64,000 nucleotides of DNA. Source: Gaiellaceae bacterium (GTDB taxonomy: Bacteria > Actinomycetota > Thermoleophilia > Gaiellales > Gaiellaceae). Shown piece by piece: positions 5,289 to 20,459 of the stretch. Location of the stretch: positions 2,481,988 through 2,545,987 of the forward strand of contig BPGK01000001.1 of assembly GCA_026002995.1 (NCBI GenBank), read 5' to 3'. Under the pieces are notes generated by a model. The model did no database searches. It was not told the DNA's origin and worked only from the letters and a program-made list of their open reading frames with translations. The position numbers and the translations under genes are program-made. Every line of letters starts with the position of its first letter. Positions within the stretch are counted from its first letter, which is position 1.

Positions 5289-5750
5289 ATGCGCCTCGCG
5301 AGGCCCCTTGTCACGTTCACGCTCGGCGCATACGCCGGCCTCGCGATCGCTGCCGCGCTCATGAAGCGCGCCCTTGCCCCGCGAGGCGATGCCGGAAGCG
5401 ACGAGGTCGCGCTCGTCGCGATCTTCGACGGGGTCAGGCTCGCGAGCCGGGCGCAGGCGTTCCGCGGCGGCTCCCTGCTCGCGTGGTTCGGCGGGATCGA
5501 CCTCGACCTGAGCGCCGCGGGACTCGCGCCGGGCGCACGCCTGCGGGCGGCTGCCGTCCTGGGAGGGGTCTCGATCCGCGTCCCCACGGGCTGGCGGGTG
5601 CGGTCGGAGGCGAAGGCCCTCCTCGGCGGAATCGACGTACGAACGGGTGGCGACGAGAGCCCCGACGCGCCGACGCTCGTCGTCGAGGGCCTCGCCCTGC
5701 TCGGCGGCATCGCGATCGTCGCGGCGAGGGACGCGACGGGGACGAGCTGA
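5289..5750 (+). CDS. Small membrane protein with LiaF-like C-terminal domain
   Basis: 153-aa protein with one N-terminal hydrophobic segment ([18 protein letters not shown]) and a beta-rich C-terminal region. That region contains [41 protein letters not shown] and [12 protein letters not shown]. Repeated GG-[IV]-x-[IVLR] strands of this kind occur in LiaF / cell-wall-active antibiotic response domains. No function can be assigned. Start is the ATG at 5289; longer upstream frame overlaps bolA on the other strand. Followed after 4 nt by the GTG of the aconitase-containing frame, so probably cotranscribed. Confidence 0.72.
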
Positions 5751-5754
5751 CCGC

Positions 5755-6630
5755 GTGCGCCGCGCCACTGGCTACCTCGCCTCGCTCCCGGAGAGGATCG
5801 TGCGGGCTCTCGCGGCGATCACGGGCGGTGCGCTACACGAGACTGCCGAGCTCGTCCTCCCGCGCCTCGTGCGGCGATCGCGCCTCTACGAAGCGACGGC
5901 GAAGAACCTCCTGCGCATCGCCGTCGAGCTCGTCGGCGGCGTGGAGCGACCATCCGAGGCGACGACGGGCGAGTACGAGCCCGATCCGAAGAGGCTCGCG
6001 GCACGGAAGGCAACGGGGAACGTCGTCGAGCTCGGGTCGATCCTCGCCTTCGGCTTCTCGCCGCTCTGGCTACTCGCCGCAGCGGCCGACGTCACACGCG
6101 GCACCCGCACCTACCTGGACGCGCTTGTGGGGGAGTTGAAGGGCGCCGGCGTGCTGGCCCCGGACGTCGAGCTCGGCACGATCGACGAGCTCCTCGCCGC
6201 GCTCGAGGGCGCGAGCGGGACGACCGCGCGCCTGATCGACATCCCACCGCTCGAGCTCGAGGCGCTCCGGCGCTCGCTCGCCGAGCTCCGTGCGGACGCG
6301 AGCGGGCTCCCGACACCGCCCGAGCTCGCGGCGCTGTACGCGGGCCTGCTGAGAGAGTCGGAGCGCGAGCAACGCTCGTTGCTCGAGGTCTCCGCCGGCA
6401 TCGGCGCCGCCTTCTTCAACTCCGCGCGGAAGGTCGGTCGGCAGCACCTCCTCGCGCCGTACACGGAAGACCTGCGGCCGCTCCGCAACGAGGGGTTCGC
6501 CGCCTACGCCCGCCGGGTGGGCCGTCCCTACGCCGAAGCCGTCGCCCGCCACTTCCGCCCCGACGAGCCGACCCTGACCGAGCGCGGGATCGAGCGGCTC
6601 GCTGGTCGGAAACTGGTTGAATCGAGGTCG
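5755..6630 (+). other. N-terminal extension of the aconitase frame: unrecognised helical domain
   Basis: About 292 residues, mostly predicted helix, with [20 protein letters not shown] near residue 40, a hydrophobic patch [20 protein letters not shown] near residue 90, a linker-like [14 protein letters not shown] region, and [20 protein letters not shown] followed by [18 protein letters not shown] at the end. I do not recognise the family. The composition looks like an independent cytoplasmic or membrane-associated protein rather than an aconitase domain. The junction RKLVESRS just before the aconitase Met has a TGA in the +1-shifted frame (6618-6620), so a lost stop through an indel is possible. 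Confidence 0.6.
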
Positions 6631-9396
6631 ATGCCGCATCCCGACTCCTTCGGCGCCCGCTCCCGGCTCGAGCTCGGCGGCCGCACGCTCGAGCTCTTCC
6701 GCCTGGACGCGCTCCAGGCCCGATGGGACGTCTTCCGACTCCCGTACACGCTGCGCGTCCTGCTCGAGAACGTCCTCCGGCACGAGAACGGCGTCACCGT
6801 GACGGAGCGCGACGTCGAGGCCGTCGCCGGCTGGGTTGCAACCGCGGAGCCCTCCGAGGAGATCTCGTTCACGCCCGCGCGGGTGCTCCTCCAGGACTTC
6901 ACAGGCGTGCCGGCGATCGTCGATCTCGCCGCCATGCGCGACGCGATGCGCGAGCTCGGGGGCGACCCGGCCCGGATCGACCCCCTCCTCCCGGCGGAGC
7001 TCGTCATCGACCACTCGGTGCAGGTGGACGAGTACGCGACCCGGCTCGCGATCCAGCGCAACGCCGAGCTCGAGTTCGAGCGCAACCGCGAGCGGTACGC
7101 GTTCCTGCGCTGGGGCCAGCAGGCGTTCGCGAGCCTCGCGGTCGTGCCGCCGAACACGGGAATCTGCCACCAGGTGAACCTCGAGCTCCTCGCGCGCGTG
7201 GTCGAGGAGCGCGACGGCGTCGCCTTCCCGGACACGCTCGTCGGCACCGACTCGCACACGACGATGGTCAACGGCCTCGGCGTGCTCGGCTGGGGCGTCG
7301 GAGGCATCGAAGCCGAGGCGGCGATGCTCGGCGAGTCGATCTCGATGCTCGTCCCGCAGGTCGTCGGGTTCCGCCTCACCGGCGAGCTCCCCGAAGGAGC
7401 GACAGCTACCGACCTCGTGTTGACAGTGACGCAGATCCTCCGCGAGACGGGAGTCGTCGGGAAGTTCGTGGAGTACTTCGGCCACGGGGTGGCGACGCTC
7501 CCGCTCGCCGACCGCGCCACGATCGGGAACATGTCGCCCGAGTACGGCGCGACCTGCGGCTTCTTCCCCGTCGACGAGGAGACGCTCCGCTACCTCCGGC
7601 TGACCGGCCGCTCGGAGGAGCGCATCGCGCTCGTGGAGGCGTACTGCAAGGAGAACGGGCTCTGGCACGAGCCCGACGAGCCCCCCACGTACTCGCAGGT
7701 CGTCGAGCTCGACCTCTCGACGGTCGAGCCCTCGCTCGCCGGGCCGCGCCGGCCGCAGGATCGCGTCCCGCTCGCGCGCGCCAAGCAGGCGTTCCTCGAT
7801 GCCCTGCCGAGCTTCGGCGTCGAGTACGGCAACGCCGTGGACGAGGCGGTGGCCGAGACATTCCCCGCCAGTGACCCGCCGGCGATCGTCGAGCCCGGGG
7901 CGCACGCGCCCGAGGGCGACGTGCGTGTGCCGGTCGTCGTGGCAGAGGAGCGAACCGGCGTCCCCTGTGAGCTGGACGGCGAGACGTTCGACCTCCACCA
8001 CGGCGCGGTGGTCATCGCCGCCATCACGTCCTGCACGAACACCTCGAACCCCGCGGTCATGGTCGGAGCGGGGCTCCTCGCGAAGAAGGCCGTCGAGCGC
8101 GGCCTCGCTCGCAAGCCGTGGGTGAAGTCGAGCCTCGCGCCGGGCTCGAAGGTCGTTACCCGCTACTACGACGAGGCAGGGCTCACGCCGTACCTCGAGG
8201 CGCTCGGCTTCCACACGGTCGGCTACGGCTGCACGACGTGCATCGGGAACTCGGGGCCGCTCCCGGAAGCGATCTCGCAGGCGATCGCCGAGGGCGATCT
8301 CGTCGTCTGCTCGGTCTTGTCGGGGAACCGCAACTTCGAGGCCCGCATCCACCCGGAGGTGAAGGCGAACTACCTGGCCTCGCCGCCACTCGTCGTCGCG
8401 TACGCGATCGCCGGTCGCATGGACCTCGACCTGACGAGTGAGCCGCTCGGGATCGGCTCCGACGGCGAGCCCGTCTACCTCTCGGACGTGTGGCCGTCGG
8501 CAGAGGAGGTCGAGGCGGTCATCGCGAGCGCGATCGGGCAGCAGATGTTCCGCGAGGCGTACGCAGACGTCTTCTCGGGCGACGAGTCATGGCGCTCCCT
8601 CCCCGTCCCGGAGGGCGACCTCTTCGCCTGGGATCCCGCCTCGACGTACGTGCGCCGCCCGCCGTACTTCGACGGCATGCCGCGCGAGCCGGAGCCGGTA
8701 GAGGACATCGTCGGCGCGCGCTGCCTCGTCTCGGTGGGCGACTCGGTCACGACCGACCACATCTCGCCGGCGGGATCGATCAAGCCCGACTCCCCAGCTG
8801 GCCGCTACCTCCTCGAGCACGGAGTCGAGCGCAGGGAGTTCAACTCCTACGGCTCGCGGCGCGGGAATCACGAGGTGATGGTGCGCGGGACGTTCGCGAA
8901 CGTCCGGCTGCGCAACCTCCTCGTGCCCGGCTCCGAGGGGACGTGGACCCGCCACCTCCCCTCCGGGGAGGAGATGACGATCTTCGACGCCGCCGAGCGC
9001 TACCGCGCCGAGGGAGTCCCGCTCCTCGTCCTCGCGGGGAAGGAGTACGGCTCGGGGTCGTCGCGCGACTGGGCGGCGAAGGGGCCACGGCTGCTCGGCG
9101 TGCGAGCGGTCATCGCCGAGAGCTTCGAGCGCATCCATCGCTCGAACCTCCTCATGATGGGCGTCCTGCCCCTCCAGTTCCTGCCGGGAGAGAGCCGTGA
9201 GTCGCTCGGGCTGAGCGGGCGAGAGGAGTTCTCGATCACGGGCCTCGAGAATGCAGAGGCGCATGAGGTCACCGTGCGCGCCGACGGCGTCGAGTTCCGC
9301 GCGCGCGTGCGCCTCGATACCCCGCGCGAGCGGGAGTACTTCCGCCACGGCGGGATCCTCCCCTACGTCCTGCGGCGGCTGCTCCAAGGCGACTGA
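5755..9396 (+). CDS. acnA: Aconitate hydratase preceded in frame by a ~290-residue helical domain
   Basis: TCA-cycle [4Fe-4S] enzyme interconverting citrate and isocitrate. The aconitase part begins at about the ATG at 6631 ([11 protein letters not shown], 921 aa to the stop, full AcnA/IRP1 length). Cluster-binding cysteines lie in [17 protein letters not shown] and [40 protein letters not shown] and [18 protein letters not shown] are further signatures. Upstream the same frame is open from a GTG at 5755 with no stop, adding about 292 residues unrelated to aconitase. This may be a genuine fusion or two genes joined by loss of a stop. If separate, aconitase is 6631-9396. Cytoplasmic. Confidence 0.9.
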
Positions 9397-10794: not shown

Positions 10795-11594
10795 GTCAGA
10801 TCGCCGCCATCGGCCACCTGGCTCTCGACCTGGTCGCCGGCGAGCCACCCCGTCCCGGCGGGGGCGTCTTCTACGCCGCGCGGGCCGCCGCCCGGCTCGA
10901 GGTAGACGCGCACGTCGCCGCCTCCTGCGCGCCGGGCGACCGGGACGCGCTCGTCCCGCCGCTCGAGGCCTTCGGGCTCCCCGTCCGCTGGTACCCGTCC
11001 TCCGCGACGACGACCTACCGCTTCCACTACGAGGGCGAGCGACGGATCATGCGCCAGGAGGCCGTCGGCGACCCGTGGACGCCCGACCGGGCGCTCGACG
11101 CCGTCGGCGGCGCCGCCTGGGTAGACGTGTGCGCGCTCACCCGCAGCGACTTCCCCGAGGAGACCTTCGCGGCGCTCGCGATGGACGGACGGAAGCTCGT
11201 CGTCGACGCGCAGGGCCTCGTCCGCACGCCCGCGCTCGGCCCGCTCCGAACCGACGCCGCGATCGGCGACGTGCTCCGCCGCGTCGCGATCCTGAAGCTG
11301 AACGACGAGGAGGCCGAGACGCTCGTCGGCTCCGCCGACCCGTACACCCTGCGCTCGCTCGGCGTCCCCGAGGTCGTCCTCACGCTCGGCTCGCAGGGCT
11401 CGTGGGTCGTCACCCCGGAACTCGTCGAGCACGTCCCCGCGGTTCCCGTGGAAGAGCCCGTCGATCCAACGGGGGCGGGAGACACGTACTCCATCGCGTA
11501 CCTCGTCTCCCGCATGCGAGGGGCCGAGCCGGTCGAGGCGGCGCGCTTCGCGGCCGAGACGGCGTCCGCCTTCCTCGCCGACGACGCGCAGTGA
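10791..11594 (+). CDS. PfkB/ribokinase-family kinase
   Basis: Cytoplasmic small-molecule kinase of 267 aa. Family features are an N-terminal IAAIGHLALDLV strand, a glycine-rich region RPGGGVFYAARAAARL, and the C-terminal anion-hole motif DPTGAGDTYSIAYLV with the catalytic Asp in GAGD. LNDEEAETLVG is also typical. Start is the GTG overlapping the permease TGA. Shorter than most PfkB sugar kinases (about 300 aa). The substrate is unknown; coupling to a nucleobase permease hints at a nucleoside or pyrimidine-derived substrate, which is inference only. Confidence 0.85.
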   Translation: MSQIAAIGHLALDLVAGEPPRPGGGVFYAARAAARLEVDAHVAASCAPGDRDALVPPLEAFGLPVRWYPSSATTTYRFHYEGERRIMRQEAVGDPWTPDRALDAVGGAAWVDVCALTRSDFPEETFAALAMDGRKLVVDAQGLVRTPALGPLRTDAAIGDVLRRVAILKLNDEEAETLVGSADPYTLRSLGVPEVVLTLGSQGSWVVTPELVEHVPAVPVEEPVDPTGAGDTYSIAYLVSRMRGAEPVEAARFAAETASAFLADDAQ

Positions 11595-11677: not shown

Positions 11678-12829
11678 ATGGACGACATGCCCTCGATCGC
11701 GACCCAGTACAGGTTCCACGACGTCGGCGAGGAGATCGCCCGCGAGTGGCCGCAAACGCTCTCCGAGGCGCTCGACGAGGCGCTCGTACCGCTGCTCGAG
11801 AAGCACGCGGCCGCCACGGCTCACCTCCGCGTCGGTCTCGCCACATCTGACGCTGGCCGGCTGCGCGCCACGGCGTACTTGCACCTGCCCGGGCGGAAGA
11901 CCGTGTCCGTGACCGCGGAGCACCGGGAGCCGACCGAGCTTGCCCGAAGGCTCGCGCGCAGTCTCTTCCGTCAGGCCAAGAGACACTTCGACCGTCTCCG
12001 CGCACAACGTGAGCACACGCGAAGGTCGCGCCGCGAGCGGCTGCGTACGCTCAGGGCCGAGGCTGCAGCCCTCCCCGAGCCCACGGTCGATGAGGCAACG
12101 ATCACGCTGAGAGCACTGCTTCCGAGACTGGAGACGGTCGCACGCCGCGAGCTCGCCTACCTGCACGCCACCGGCGACCTGCCGAGCGACTACCCCGCCG
12201 TGAGCGACGTCGTCGACGAGGCGCTCGCCGCCACGACGGCGGCGTGGCAGGCTGAAACGGACGAGCAGCCGGCCTACGTACGCCTGCTCCGGAACCTCTT
12301 TGCGGCGATCGACCGAGAGGTGGTCGCGAGCCGAACGTACGGCGAGGCTGTCTCGCTGGAATCCCCTTTGCCACCCGATGCGGAAGACACCGCCGAGGCG
12401 ATGGTCGAGGAGGAGTTCTACGAGTACTACCAGCCCGACGACACGCTGAGCTTGGCCGACGTGATCCCTGAGGAGCCGGTGGACGAAACGGCGACGGACG
12501 ACGAGCTCGACGAGCTCGGCGAACGCAGGAGCGAACGAGCGTACGCGCTCGCTGCGCTCAAGGACCTGCCGACGCCATGGAGGCGCGCCTTCCTGCTCGT
12601 GCGGGTGGACGGGCTCGACATCCGCAGCGTTACCCATGTCTTACGCTCCCCGGCAGAGGAGGAGCGCGTGCGACGATCGCTGGCGCAAGCGGAGGAGTTC
12701 GTCGCTGCCCGCATCGAGGACGCCGGGATCGCGTCGGACGGCGCCGCGTGGCTTGCGTCGCAGGACTGGAGCCAGGGTACGACCATGAGCGACGACACGG
12801 CGTCTCTACCACGTCCGAGCGAGCCGTAG
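11678..12829 (+). CDS. HPF/RaiA-like ribosome hibernation domain fused to sigma-70-like regions
   Basis: 383-aa two-part protein. Residues about 1-110 resemble the HPF/RaiA beta-alpha fold: TAYLHLPGRKTVSVTAEHRE followed by LARRLARSLFRQAKRHFDRL and a basic coiled tail. Residues about 150-225 resemble ECF sigma region 2 (ARRELAYLHATGDLPSDYPA; DVVDEALAATTAAWQ; YVRLLRNLFAAIDREV). Residues about 285-355 resemble region 4 (ALKDLPTPWRRAFLLVRVDG). An acidic linker (EDTAEAMVEEEFYEYYQPDD) joins them. It may couple ribosome dormancy to transcription, or use sigma-type helices for another purpose. Start could also be the ATG at 11687. Directly upstream of the aeRF1-like gene (3 nt gap). Confidence 0.8.
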   Translation: MDDMPSIATQYRFHDVGEEIAREWPQTLSEALDEALVPLLEKHAAATAHLRVGLATSDAGRLRATAYLHLPGRKTVSVTAEHREPTELARRLARSLFRQAKRHFDRLRAQREHTRRSRRERLRTLRAEAAALPEPTVDEATITLRALLPRLETVARRELAYLHATGDLPSDYPAVSDVVDEALAATTAAWQAETDEQPAYVRLLRNLFAAIDREVVASRTYGEAVSLESPLPPDAEDTAEAMVEEEFYEYYQPDDTLSLADVIPEEPVDETATDDELDELGERRSERAYALAALKDLPTPWRRAFLLVRVDGLDIRSVTHVLRSPAEEERVRRSLAQAEEFVAARIEDAGIASDGAAWLASQDWSQGTTMSDDTASLPRPSEP

Positions 12830-12832
12830 GCC

Positions 12833-14235
12833 GTGCTGCCGATCGAGGAGCAACTCGACGCCATCCGCGAGTGGAGCGGTGCGGCCCAGGACGACGTGCT
12901 CACCGTATACGCGGACATCGACCCGGCCAAGCCGGAGAACGCCCGCGGTGCGTGGGTGACGCGCGTCAAGAACAGCCTGCACGCGTTGCCGGAAGTGCGT
13001 AACCAGCACGGCAAGCGCGACCAGCCCCTCTACGACCGCGTGCTCGATCTCCTCGAGTCCGACCGCCCGGACGCGCGCACCCTCGTCCTCGTCGCCCATC
13101 GCGAGCCCCACGGCAAGCTCCACGCGGAGCGATTCGATCTCCAGGTGGAGCTACCTGTCGTCGATCTCGCTCATGGCCAAGTCGAGGCGCGCTACGGCGC
13201 ACCCCACCTCGCACCGCTCTGGTTCGCCGTCGACGAGTACGAGCGCGCCGGCATCGTCGTGCTGGAGGCCGCGGGCAGGTGGCGGTTCCTGGAGGCGTTC
13301 CTGGGAGACATTCGGGAAGCCGATGACGTGTTCGCGTCGATCTCCGACGTCGAGTGGAGGAGACTGCGCGAGGCGAGTCGGAAGATCTCCGACACGCTGG
13401 GCGCACGCGCCGCCGCGCCGGGCGGACGGTACGACAAGCTCTCGCCCAGGGACCGCACGGCTGCGCGGGTGGACGCGTGGACGCACAAGCTGTACACGAC
13501 GCTGGCGCGCCTCCTCGACCAGACCTCCGAGCGGCTCGCCGTCGACCGGCTCGTGGTCGTCGGCGAGCACTGGCCCGAGGGTGCGACGCGTGGCCACCCA
13601 CAGCTCGTCGCCCCGAGCGGCGAAGTCGCGTCGACGAGATCGGCGCCGCCACTGCCGTCGCTGCCGTCGACCGCGCCGCGCGACCGTCGGCGAGCCGTGG
13701 CGCGCTCGAGCGCACCCGCTTCGAGACGCTGCCTGCCCGAGCGCCTCGGCGTGCCGCCGCGGCCGACGCTCGCCCTTGCTCGCCCGAGGCTCCGGAGCGG
13801 AACTCGGCCGCTGCTCCGTCTGGCGCCGCGTCGGAGCGGCCGTGCCTGCCGCTGGAGCTCGGAGCGCACGGCCGAGCGTCCGCCAGCTGGGCGGTCGAGC
13901 GTGGCATCCCTCGAGGCGCCGGGCCTCTGGGGACGGCTCCCGCGCGGCCCGCTCGCTTCGGACCGCGCTCCGCTCGAGCTGGCGCACGGGTGCAGCACTG
14001 GGTGGTGCCCTGGGCGCTCGAGGCGCGGATCTGGCGCTGTCCGCGGGAAGGCTTCGTGGCGGCAACCGAGGAGACGGCTCGGATCCTCTGCGAGCACCCC
14101 GAGGAGGTCGCCCTCCGTGCGCACGTCCTGGACTTGTCCGCACGCTTCGGCGCAAGACTCGAGCTCGTTCGAGGAGAGGCGGAGCGACGCCTACTCGACG
14201 AGCTCGGAGGGATGGCCGCGCTCCTCCGCTGGTGA
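12833..14235 (+). pseudogene. aeRF1-type release-factor-like gene with disrupted reading frame
   Basis: The N-terminal part, from the GTG at 12833 to about 13,590, reads coherently (LPIEEQLDAIREWSGAAQDD, VLTVYADIDPAKPENARGAW, ELPVVDLAHGQVEARYG, LWFAVDEYERAGIVVLEA) and resembles bacterial aeRF1/VLRF1-type proteins. The C-terminal part, HWVVPWALEARIWRC to LLDELGGMAALLRW (13,998-14,235), also reads coherently but in a different frame. Between them, VDEIGAATAVAAVDRAAR (from 13,627) is in the C-terminal frame, whereas APLELAH just before HWVVPW is in the first frame. At least one net -1 (or +2) shift is therefore needed, perhaps several. Pseudogene, sequencing error or recoding cannot be separated here. 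Confidence 0.65.
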
Positions 14236-14286
14236 GGTCGGAGTTGGTGCGCTCGCTCTCCGCGGTTTAGAGTGACGAGCGGGTCC

Positions 14287-14565: not shown

Positions 14566-14816
14566 CGCAGTTCGGTGACATCGAGGTCTGCGAGTTGCCA
14601 GGAATCGGCGTCCGCTACGACTTCGTGACCACCGCCGGCGATCGGATCGGACTGCTCGTCCACGAGTCCGGCGAGCGCGAGCTCTTGCTCTTCGACCGGT
14701 CTGACCCCGACTCCGCGCGCTCGCTTCCGCTGAGCGAGCACGACCTCGTTCGCCTCGGGGAGATGCTGGGGCTCGGCGCAGACCCCCGGCCCACGCTCGA
14801 CCGCCTTCCCGAGTGA
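14562..14816 (+). CDS. KhtT-like N-terminal regulatory protein of a cation/proton antiporter
   Basis: 84-aa protein. ICELPGIGVRYDFVT-like sequence (visible as VCELPGIGVRYDFVTTAGDR) followed by IGLLVHESGERELLLFDRSD and LSEHDLVRLGEMLGL matches the N-terminal domain of KhtT-type antiporter regulatory subunits. Typical KhtT proteins are about 160 aa and continue into a TrkA-C (RCK_C) ligand-binding domain; that second domain is absent here. Followed 53 nt later by the antiporter gene, so a regulatory partner role is likely, but without the usual nucleotide-sensing module. Confidence 0.75.
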   Translation: MTQFGDIEVCELPGIGVRYDFVTTAGDRIGLLVHESGERELLLFDRSDPDSARSLPLSEHDLVRLGEMLGLGADPRPTLDRLPE

Positions 14817-14869: not shown

Positions 14870-16009
14870 ATGGCGATCGGAGCGACAGGCCCCGACGCGA
14901 GCGCCGCTTATCTGGAGCTCGGCATTCTCCTGCTCGCTCTCGGGCTCGCGGCGCGTCTCGCCGTTCGGGCCGGACTCTCTCCGGTCGGCGTCTACCTGCT
15001 CGGCGGCGTGCTCGTCGGCGCGCTCGACGTTCCTGGGCTCAGTGGGCCGTTCATCGAGTTCGCAGCCGGTCTCGGCGTCGTGCTGCTCCTCTTCCTGCTG
15101 GGCCTGGAGTACACGCCGCACGAGCTGACGGCGAACCTGCGGACGAACGCGCCGGCCGGGATCGTGGACTTCGTGCTCAACTTCACGCCAGGGGCGATCT
15201 GCGCGCTGCTGCTCGGGTGGTCGACGACGAGCGCCGTGCTCTTGGGCGGCGTCACCTGGATCTCCTCCTCCAGCATCGTCGCCAAGACACTCGGCGACCT
15301 CGGACGCCTCGGTAACCGCGAGACGCCGGTGATCCTGGCGGTGCTCGTCCTCGAAGACCTCGCCATGACGATCTACCTCCCACTCGTCGCGGCGCTCTTG
15401 GTCGGCGGTGGCTTCGCCGCGGCGCTCGGGTCGGTCGCTCTCGCAGTCCTCGCCGCCGGCGCCGCGTTCGCGCTCGCCCTCCGGCACGGCGCCGCGGTGG
15501 AACGGCTCGTCGAGCACCGCTCGGAGGAGGTCGTACTGCTAACGGCGCTCGGATTCGTTCTCGTCGTCGCCGGCGGCGCGGAGCTCCTCCACATCTCCGC
15601 CGGCGTAGGAGCGTTCGTCGCGGGAGTAGCGCTGTCGGGCGAGGTCGCAGGACGTGCCGAGGCCTTGCTCCAGCCGATCCGCGACTTCAACGTCGCCCTC
15701 TTCTTCCTCTTCTTCGGGCTCCAGATCGAACTCGCTGCGCTCGGGTCGGTTCTCATTCCCGTGCTCTCGCTCGCAGTCGTGACAGCAGTCACGAAGGCCG
15801 CAACCGGTTGGTGGGCCGCGAGACGGGCAGGAATCGGTGCGCGCGGGCGCGTCCGCGCCGCCACCGCTCTCATCCCGCGCGGCGAGTTCTCGATCGTCAT
15901 CGCCGGGTTGGCCGGCGCGAGCGGCTCAGGCGAGCTACCCGCGCTCGCCGCAGGCTACGTGCTCGTGCTCGCAGTCGTCGGGCCCGCGCTTACCCGGCTG
16001 TCCAACTGA
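14870..16009 (+). CDS. CPA2-family cation/proton antiporter (KhtU-like)
   Basis: Integral membrane antiporter, 379 aa with about 12 hydrophobic segments, probably exchanging K+ (or Na+) for H+. Family features: LFLLGLEYTPHEL, the GGVTWISSSSIVAKTLGDLG stretch, the LVLEDLAMTIYLPLVAALLV helix with the ED pair, and IPRGEFSIVIAGLAG near the C-terminus. No RCK/TrkA-N domain follows the membrane part, consistent with regulation by the separate small protein upstream. ATG at 14870 chosen because it directly precedes the first membrane segment. Confidence 0.88.
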   Translation: MAIGATGPDASAAYLELGILLLALGLAARLAVRAGLSPVGVYLLGGVLVGALDVPGLSGPFIEFAAGLGVVLLLFLLGLEYTPHELTANLRTNAPAGIVDFVLNFTPGAICALLLGWSTTSAVLLGGVTWISSSSIVAKTLGDLGRLGNRETPVILAVLVLEDLAMTIYLPLVAALLVGGGFAAALGSVALAVLAAGAAFALALRHGAAVERLVEHRSEEVVLLTALGFVLVVAGGAELLHISAGVGAFVAGVALSGEVAGRAEALLQPIRDFNVALFFLFFGLQIELAALGSVLIPVLSLAVVTAVTKAATGWWAARRAGIGARGRVRAATALIPRGEFSIVIAGLAGASGSGELPALAAGYVLVLAVVGPALTRLSN

Positions 16010-16099
16010 CGTGTTCCCGCCGTCCGCGACATCAACGACGACCCTGGTAGGCTCGGTCGAGCGAAGGGAAGCTGGCGACCCGAGGGCGAGGTGGGCGAG

Positions 16100-18817
<2,718 letters not shown>

Positions 18818-18830
18818 GCCAGAACCAGCG

Positions 18831-19685
18831 ATGGATCCGCTCAGCCTTCTCTGGCTCTTCTTCATCCTCGTGTCACTGCAACCCGCCGTTCAGCGGTACG
18901 TGCTCGTCGAGCGACGGCGCCGCAGCCTCGAGCGCATCTCACGCGCGCGAGGAGCGACGGTCATCACCCTCATCCACCGCCAGGAGACGATGTCGCTCCT
19001 CGGGTTTCCGCTCTTTCGCTACATCGACATCGACGACGCCGAGAGCACGCTGCGCGCGATCCGCGCGACTCCGCCGGGCAAGCCGATCGAGATCATCCTG
19101 CACACGCCGGGAGGGCTCGTCGTCGCAGCACGGCAGATCGCCTCGGCACTCGCCGATCACGACGGCCCCGTGACTGCGGTCGTGCCCCACTATGCAATGA
19201 GCGGAGGGACGCTCATCGCGCTCGCCGCCGACGAGATCGTGCTCGATCCCCACGCCGCGCTCGGCCCCGTCGATCCGCAGCTCGGGCAGTACCCTGCGGC
19301 GTCGATCCTGGCCTCGCTCGACTGGCCCGGAACTCGGAAAGACGAGACCCTCATCCTCGCCGACGTCGCGCGCAAGGCGATCGCGCAAGTCGAGGCGTTC
19401 ACGGGCCGGCTCCTCGAGCGTCATCTACCACCCGAGCGGGCCGCCGACGTCGCGCGTCTCCTCGCGACGGGGACGTGGACGCACGACCACCCGCTCCAGG
19501 CGGCCGAGCTCGAGGCGCTTGGGCTACCCATCCGCGTCGGCGTCGGGGACGAGGAACGGGAGTTGATGCTCCTCTACCCGCAACCGCGAGGCCGAACGCC
19601 GGCGGTCGAGTACGTGCCCAGCGAGCCTGAGCGCCCGACCCTCCCCCGCCGCCGCGAACTTCCGAAGCCTTCTCGCCGACGCTGA
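18831..19685 (+). CDS. Membrane-anchored ClpP-fold serine protease (SDH/SppA-like)
   Basis: 284 aa. An N-terminal membrane segment (LLWLFFILVSLQPAVQ) is followed by a crotonase/ClpP-fold domain: IEIILHTPGGLVVAARQIAS supplies the oxyanion region and HYAMSGGTLIALAADEIVLD carries the nucleophilic Ser. This matches the serine-dehydrogenase-proteinase family (PF01972 type) related to SppA. Starts 13 nt after the ClpC-like gene, suggesting the two are cotranscribed and may work together on membrane-near substrates, which is inference. The C-terminal tail is Pro/Arg-rich. Confidence 0.87.
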   Translation: MDPLSLLWLFFILVSLQPAVQRYVLVERRRRSLERISRARGATVITLIHRQETMSLLGFPLFRYIDIDDAESTLRAIRATPPGKPIEIILHTPGGLVVAARQIASALADHDGPVTAVVPHYAMSGGTLIALAADEIVLDPHAALGPVDPQLGQYPAASILASLDWPGTRKDETLILADVARKAIAQVEAFTGRLLERHLPPERAADVARLLATGTWTHDHPLQAAELEALGLPIRVGVGDEERELMLLYPQPRGRTPAVEYVPSEPERPTLPRRRELPKPSRRR

Positions 19686-19763: not shown

Positions 19764-20459
19764 ATGGTGATCCCGCTCGGCGACGCCCTTCCGACTCGGC
19801 GCTTTCCCCTCGTGACGGTCGCGCTCATCTGCGCCAACGTGGCCGTGTGGCTCCTCTACCAGGTTCCGAATCTCACCCAGTCCATCGTCGAGCTCGGCTT
19901 CTACGCGTGCGAGCTCGAGCGCTCCTGCCCGGGGCACGGCGCGTCCTGGCCGGTGAACGCGTTCACCGCGATGTTCCTCCACGGGAACTGGCTCCACATC
20001 GCCGGGAACATGCTCTTCCTCTGGATCTTCGGGAACAACGTCGAGGACGCGATGGGACGAGTGCGGTTCCTCGCCTTCTACCTGCTCTGCGGGCTCGTGG
20101 CAACGGCGACGCAGGCCTTCGTCACGCTCACCGTCGGCGCCCCGGGAGACGCGGAGGTCCCGATGGTCGGCGCGAGCGGCGCGATCGCGGGCGTGCTTGG
20201 CGCGTACTTCGTTTTCTACCCGCTCGCGCGCGTGATCGCGCTCGTCCCGCTCCCGTTCCCGTTCCCGATCGAGGCTCCGGCGCTCCTCTTCATCGGCTTC
20301 TGGTTCGTCTTCCAGCTCTGGCAGGCCGGCTTCTCCCTCCTCGCGCCGGTCGCGGGCGGCGGCGTCGCCTTCTTCGCCCACGTCGGCGGGTTCGTCTTCG
20401 GAGTGCTCATCGCTGGTCTCTTCGCGGCTCCCCAACGCCCACCGAGCACGCTGCGCTGA
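19764..20459 (+). CDS. Rhomboid-family intramembrane serine protease
   Basis: 231 aa polytopic membrane protein. Rhomboid signatures are MFLHGNWLHIAGNMLFLWIF (HxxxN region), the catalytic serine in VGASGAIAGVLGAYF, and the catalytic histidine in FFAHVGGFVFGVLIAG. Six membrane segments fit the basic bacterial rhomboid core. The start is an ATG with a GGGAGG ribosome-binding site 7 nt upstream. Third protease-related gene in a row. Substrates cannot be predicted. Confidence 0.93.
   Translation: MVIPLGDALPTRRFPLVTVALICANVAVWLLYQVPNLTQSIVELGFYACELERSCPGHGASWPVNAFTAMFLHGNWLHIAGNMLFLWIFGNNVEDAMGRVRFLAFYLLCGLVATATQAFVTLTVGAPGDAEVPMVGASGAIAGVLGAYFVFYPLARVIALVPLPFPFPIEAPALLFIGFWFVFQLWQAGFSLLAPVAGGGVAFFAHVGGFVFGVLIAGLFAAPQRPPSTLR

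Follow-up and report, generated by a model that had tools for sequence, protein, structure and literature searches.

We analysed a window of 64,000 nucleotides of DNA from a Gaiellaceae bacterium, in which an open reading frame at 11678-12829 has a coding-type composition (G+C of 0.73/0.50/0.84 at codon positions 1/2/3). A PfkB-like frame upstream of it ends at 11594, and its stop codon is separated by 3 nt from the next start, a GTG at 12833. The gene heads a run of genes for a KefB-type antiporter, ClpK, an SDH-type ClpP-like protease and a rhomboid protease. The features of the gene and its surroundings are as follows.

11678-12829, plus strand: HPF-sigma fusion gene, relative of tLST orf11, 383 amino acids
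11696-12010, plus strand: HPF/RaiA (Ribosomal_S30AE) domain, residues 7-111, beta-alpha-beta-beta-beta-alpha (fold match, profile matches, PF02482 in the relative at locus L051)
12011-12076, plus strand: basic extension of the second HPF helix, residues 112-133, leading to the sigma part (helix 85-130 of the model)
12077-12343, plus strand: sigma region 2-like domain, residues 134-222 (fold, alignment, hhalign), with the RNA polymerase-facing motif DVVDE at residues 177-181 (alignment)
12392-12469, plus strand: acidic linker motif AEAMVEEEFYEYYQPDDTLSLADVIP, residues 239-264 (conservation, dN/dS)
12518-12727, plus strand: sigma region 4-like domain with an altered recognition helix, residues 281-350 (profiles, fold; PF08281 in L009 and L051)
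12833-14275, plus strand: baeRF family 10 gene, reading frame intact to ~13570 only
14870-16009, plus strand: KefB/CPA2-type cation:proton antiporter, transmembrane part only
16091-18817, plus strand: ClpK/ClpG-type disaggregase with a cysteine-containing N-terminus
18831-19685, plus strand: ClpP-like SDH-type serine protease, with 55% identity to its counterpart next to the L050/L057 fusion gene
19764-20459, plus strand: rhomboid protease, with 38% identity to its counterpart in the L057 island

When the window protein (P0001) was searched alone, no Pfam domain was matched, NCBIfam returned weak sigma/PhyR matches only (at 278-346), and searches against Pfam, PADLOC and PDB sequences gave nothing useful. 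Since P0001 alone matches too weakly, we turned to relatives to test the two resemblances, of an HPF/RaiA-like domain joined in one polypeptide to sigma-70-like regions 2 and 4. Eight loci emerged when 84,980 species genomes were scanned, six of them near-identical copies with 49% identity to the window protein over residues 6-376 and two at 37-38% identity over the best segments. Genome searches and plasmids supplied other full-length relatives (L049, L050/L057, L051/L058 and, in Cupriavidus, L056), and seven full-length relatives display both the HPF and the sigma halves. L053 and a protein of Azospirillum are stand-alone sigma-like relatives with an EEFYEWYQPDE-type linker. At L010, a match at residues 26-117 (E 8.8e-5) lies in a frame with a stop. 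About 150 profile matches in the phylum fell almost always on the region-4 part; they were taken as ordinary sigma factors and not as members. Phage genomes and viral contigs yielded no relatives, and there was no second full-length copy in the 60 nearest genomes, 299 genomes of the class and 396 of the phylum; this absence suggests that the fusion gene reached the window genome horizontally.

The relatives also gave the gene an identity. At the Pantoea locus the order is ClpK, Hsp20, YfdX, YfdX, HdeD, fusion gene, thioredoxin, KefB, GGDEF protein, PsiE, HtpX and DegP. Because of its position between hdeD and trx, this relative is orf11 of tLST1, a long-unexplained gene that E. coli and Klebsiella carry in a mobile heat-resistance island (E. 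coli protein accession WP_001222629.1), and it is apparently the same as ORF10 of P. aeruginosa TLPQC-1. The window protein is homologous to the tLST orf11 family over its full length, linker motif included, with 49% identity over nearly the whole length, the same architecture and the same model. Matches were found in 287 plasmid records, mostly from Klebsiella, Enterobacter, Acinetobacter and Escherichia, while a near-identical gene of L007 is present, on the chromosome, in 4 of 5,426 complete E. coli genomes. The orf11 protein has been published as hypothetical, sharing <30% identity with every protein whose function is known, and a 'sigma 24 like' factor has been mentioned in the island of Methylobacillus flagellatus (PMC8290217); the latter may belong to the HPF-sigma family. 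No HPF-sigma fusion was found described in the literature searched, which comprised main texts and few subscription papers. Pseudomonas lundensis DSM 6252 carries two different orf11 copies, ~71% identical, in two island versions (second copy, L049 1480-2646). Near-identical tLST copies also occur in records labelled Desulfovibrio sp. MES5 (MAG; L003) and Spirochaetia bacterium (MAG; L005), which reflect either very recent transfer or bin contamination.

For the N-terminal half, the relative L051 passes the curated cut-off of PF02482 (23.7) with a score of 24.0, so that in this one chain PF02482 and sigma-70 region 4 both stand over the Pfam curated cut-offs. In L007, L008 and L009 the PF02482 matches are below cut-off and in register; the HPF scores of the window protein itself are weak, and P0001 misses the cut-off. 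When a profile of the eight N-termini was compared with the PDB, the best matches were HPF/RaiA/YfiA of E. coli and Thermus (best E 4.7e-5). In an AlphaFold model of the window protein, built from four sequences and with a mean pLDDT of 73, residues 8-130 run strand-helix-strand-strand-strand-helix. VIA-align placed residues 7-107 on V. cholerae HPF (4hei_A; Z 13.6, 1.6 A over 92 residues) and residues 7-112 on RaiA of the Balon-RaiA ribosome complex (Z 12.8), and a model of tLST orf11 from the same four sequences repeated the HPF/RaiA fold match (Z 13.7 and 13.8). The HPF-type beta-alpha fold that a structure prediction had been expected to reveal is therefore present in the model of the window protein, at residues 7-111. 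Like RaiA, HPF and YfiA (PF02482), the fusion has the beta-alpha-beta-beta-beta-alpha fold, the strand-turn LhLPg and a basic second helix, the net charge of the window protein over 95-135 being +8. Unlike the fusion, members of that family are short or have a small C-terminal dimerisation domain, and in the literature searched none was found described with sigma regions. The window genome encodes an ordinary HPF elsewhere, so the fusion protein is an extra one.

For the C-terminal half, PF08281 stands over cut-off in L009 (32.8) and L051 (26.8), as does PF04545 in L051. PhyR models are among the best annotated models matched by the family. The family profile matched sigma factors in the PDB down to E 1.9e-8, and hhalign against a small ECF alignment, which includes two stand-alone relatives and is not fully independent, gave a probability of 98.2 and an E of 5e-14 over 133-349, covering both region 2 and region 4. 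In the models, residues 134-357 were superposed on Bartonella RpoE bound to NepR (Z 14.6 for the window protein and 15.1 for tLST orf11) and also on other anti-sigma-bound ECF factors and on PhyR; helical fold matches at Z ~14.6-15.1 can be unspecific, but the sequence evidence likewise points to sigma factors. The modelled sigma2-sigma4 pair adopts the closed form of sigma/anti-sigma and PhyR-NepR complexes, an arrangement that is tentative because linker residues 222-284 are of low confidence (pLDDT <50).

Thus the relatives and the models together bear out the fusion put forward in the preliminary description, and the borders claimed there (~110; ~150-225; ~285-355) are near those found (HPF, ~7-111; region 2, ~134-222; region 4, ~281-350). 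Profile searches of each half succeeded in the relatives but not with the window protein alone, which remained without a Pfam domain. We regard the architecture of HPF plus sigma regions 2 and 4 in one chain as close to certain. Like ECF sigma factors (PF04542, PF08281), the fusion has the folds of regions 2 and 4 in order as well as a region 2.2 RNA polymerase motif; unlike them, it has an inserted ELAYLxAxGDLP segment in region 2, a long acidic EEEFYEFYQPDD linker and an N-terminal HPF domain, and it has lost the recognition-helix arginine. PhyR is a sigma mimic and does not act at promoters. It resembles the fusion in that a degenerate sigma 2 and sigma 4 are attached to an unrelated domain, but in the fusion a ribosome-binding fold stands in place of the receiver domain, and neither Pfam nor the model revealed a receiver domain in the window protein.

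The sigma part had at first been read as a promoter-recognition module, a reading that the evidence supports only in part. All eight sigma-like members aligned (RVRRSL, AVRAGL, RAETWI, EIEDIF, TVETWL, EVAEIA, EVRSWL and EVGPML) lack the arginine in the recognition helix of region 4.2, with S, G, W, I or M in its place, and the ECF pattern [KRS][SGT]R[LM] does not occur in this helix in the family; three ordinary ECF factors of the window genome keep the arginine (TIKSRM, TVKGRM and AVSTRL). The recognition-like segment has a low or negative net charge in most members. In region 2, conservation of the -10-contact asparagine was not apparent, at a place where the alignment is uncertain by a few residues and the -10 contacts may be better kept than they appear; the RN of the -10 loop, as in ECF factors, is present in P0001 and L050. 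A deleted -10 loop in region 2 was considered and dropped, the ungapped reading aligning the RN motif. The region 2.2 motif, D-[VI]-V-D-[EA], is conserved in the fusions and is predicted to contact RNA polymerase. In sigma-70 the region 2.2 motif, D-L-I-Q-E, faces the beta-prime clamp. Within the family, and also between its distant members, conservation is highest in the acidic linker, part of which is common to the stand-alone sigma relatives. Between two tLST-type copies the dN/dS is 0.24 overall, 0.24 in HPF, 0.27 in region 2 and 0.30 in region 4, and it is lowest in the linker (0.145). Both halves are under purifying selection in these copies, which speaks against a chance reading. A sigma-70 promoter scan of the window region, a scan that is uninformative in GC-rich DNA, found nothing. 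Since the RNA polymerase side is kept and the DNA side lost, we favour a pseudo-sigma.

The surroundings of the gene connect it with the tLST island as well. The window ClpK is 52% identical to the tLST ClpK over 905 residues, including the cysteine-bearing N-terminus, and the combination of a ClpK/ClpG with this N-terminus, KefB and orf11 in one cluster, which marks tLST, is present in the window. Neighbours of the same kind (ClpK, KefB) are thus common to tLST orf11 and the window gene, but the latter has the SDH protease and rhomboid nearby and not YfdX, HdeD or Hsp20, while tLST orf11 is without an adjoining baeRF gene. As none of Hsp20, the YfdX pair, HdeD, thioredoxin and DegP was recognised in the window between 11.6 and 20.5 kb, the cluster is a tLST-like relative and not a tLST variant, and it lies outside Proteobacteria, in an actinobacterial genome. 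The phylum follows from WhiB, an actinobacterial marker: the window genome lacks it, but all eight genomes tested from its phylum have it. The other fusion genes are flanked by KefB, thioredoxin, SDH protease, rhomboid, FtsH, PsiE and ClpK in L057 (some named from ORF reading), by KefB, HdeD, ClpK, Hsp20, YfdX and PsiE in L058, and by cardiolipin synthase, KefB and Hsp20s in L008. In Gammaproteobacteria bacterium KatS3mg121 (L009 5001-9120) a DegP-type protease gene and a frame resembling the RNA ligase RtcB come after the fusion gene. The window antiporter, of 379 amino acids, is without C-terminal TrkA domains and is preceded by a short ORF (14575-14816) that reads as a KefB/KhtT-type regulatory subunit and has no Pfam match.

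The gene 3 nt downstream of the fusion gene, which had been called release-factor-like, encodes a product that indeed matches Pfam baeRF_family10 (57.4 bits; cut-off 27.1). The match ends at position 101 of 143 and the codon pattern is gone after ~13570; near 14032-14232, a different frame has a weak C-terminal baeRF match (E 0.16). This frame break is due to decay or a sequencing error, and the gene may be broken. A second baeRF10 copy is located elsewhere in the window genome (G000:C1:1807275-1807712). Family 10 falls in the bacterial aeRF1 clade, in which several families have HPF as a neighbour (PMC6514570). Balon is an aeRF1 homologue that, with RaiA, binds ribosomes; genes for it lie most often beside RaiA and also near alternative sigma-70, Hsp20, HdeD and RtcB genes (PMC10901736). 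We provisionally count baeRF family 10 as Balon family, a grouping made in this analysis. The window fusion gene, with its adjoining baeRF gene, is like the loci of Balon and other bacterial aeRF1 proteins; unlike at Balon loci, the RaiA-like and sigma-like parts form one polypeptide, so that two known Balon neighbours are combined in it, and the baeRF copy is frame-broken. When the sharing of this neighbour was counted, however, few relatives had it: among eight fusion proteins a baeRF gene was seen only beside that of the window, and it was also seen beside one stand-alone sigma relative, whose gene overlaps a baeRF10 gene in Azospirillum. Commoner neighbours of the fusion relatives are ClpK, KefB, thioredoxin and HdeD. 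Since the baeRF proteins of the window and of Azospirillum are only weakly similar, the association could have arisen twice. On plasmids of Azospirillum (L054 7594-9865) and Phenylobacterium (L055 7594-8600), DUF5335 directly precedes the stand-alone sigma relative and is a candidate partner or anti-sigma of it; stress genes nearby are TrxC and DegQ in L054 and Hsp20, Lon and TrxC in L055.

The domain architecture is conserved in stress-tolerance islands of proteobacteria and one actinobacterium. With a confidence that is about evenly balanced, we interpret the window gene product from its sequence as a ribosome-hibernation factor with a C-terminal pseudo-sigma, whose most likely target would be RNA polymerase or an anti-sigma factor and not a promoter. 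Upon heat or oxidative shock, the N-terminal HPF domain would dock in the mRNA/tRNA channel of the 30S, as RaiA/HPF does, possibly with a Balon-type baeRF alongside it in the A site, and on the long basic helix the sigma-like module would protrude outwards. Given that the -35 recognition-helix arginine is lost but the region 2.2 motif and the acidic linker are kept, this module would most likely attach to core RNA polymerase (or, as PhyR does, to an anti-sigma factor) and choose no promoter. Ribosome parking would in this way be tied to transcriptional shut-down or reprogramming, and meanwhile ClpK, small heat-shock proteins and proteases would repair damage. The gene set of the tLST island is extended to Actinomycetota, and tLST orf11 gains a domain-level identity in an island that confers heat and chlorine resistance and is found on many plasmids of Klebsiella, Enterobacter, Acinetobacter and E. 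coli. Through the fusion, the transcription machinery would be physically and directly connected to ribosome hibernation; no single protein that does so was found described in the literature searched.

Published deletions bear on this role. Seven tLST1 genes lower heat or chlorine resistance when deleted in E. coli MG1655, orf11 not being among them, and deletion of orf11 left membrane lipid oxidation unchanged (PMC8407380); orf11 is also interrupted in LHR2 variants (PMC5383660). These data only weaken a hibernation role, because the effect would be expected in long-term survival or recovery and not in five-minute killing. More tentatively, the protein may be a dual hibernation factor, whose HPF part would bind idle 30S and whose pseudo-sigma would bind core RNA polymerase, both being parked or coupled during heat or oxidative shock, and which would have spread between phyla on mobile stress-tolerance islands.

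An active, promoter-specific ECF sigma factor, sequestered while its HPF domain is on the ribosome and driving a stress regulon in its free form, is in our estimate unlikely. Regions 2 and 4 in an ECF fold, the retained RNA polymerase-facing motif, the RN of the -10 loop in P0001 and L050, the stand-alone Azospirillum relative, annotated 'sigma factor' in a stress cluster, and the published presence of alternative sigma-70 genes among Balon neighbours (PMC10901736) would all agree with it. The absence of the recognition-helix arginine from 8 of 8 members, the low or negative charge of the recognition-like segment in most and the lack of a conserved -10 asparagine argue against it.

We give somewhat less credence to a hibernation factor only, in which a sigma-derived helical module would have been recycled for dimerising or positioning on the ribosome, off the transcription machinery. 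Long HPFs carry a C-terminal dimerisation domain, the HPF fold is the cleanest match and the region 4.2 arginine is lost; yet the best conserved parts are the region 2.2 motif and the linker, which would lie on the RNA polymerase side, and regions 2 and 4 are both retained in sigma-factor order. Slightly less probable again is a PhyR-type anti-anti-sigma, a special case of the pseudo-sigma, which would titrate a host anti-sigma and so release the general-stress sigma factor. The PhyR-family models among the best matches and the closed form of the model are consistent with such a protein, but no anti-sigma gene was recognised beside the fusion gene. Moreover, NepR is alphaproteobacterial, and as the HPF-sigma family is spread over different phyla, one would rather expect a partner that is present everywhere. 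Finally, a chance resemblance or an assembly chimera, with which the missing Pfam match of P0001 alone and the want of another full-length copy in 60 kin, 299 class and 396 phylum genomes might agree, is refuted by full-length relatives from several bacterial groups, which have the same order of parts and are under purifying selection, and its probability is close to nil.

An aconitase frame (5647-9396 of the window) stays open for ~330 codons ahead of the point where aconitases usually start, and this added stretch may be a second gene fused to it.
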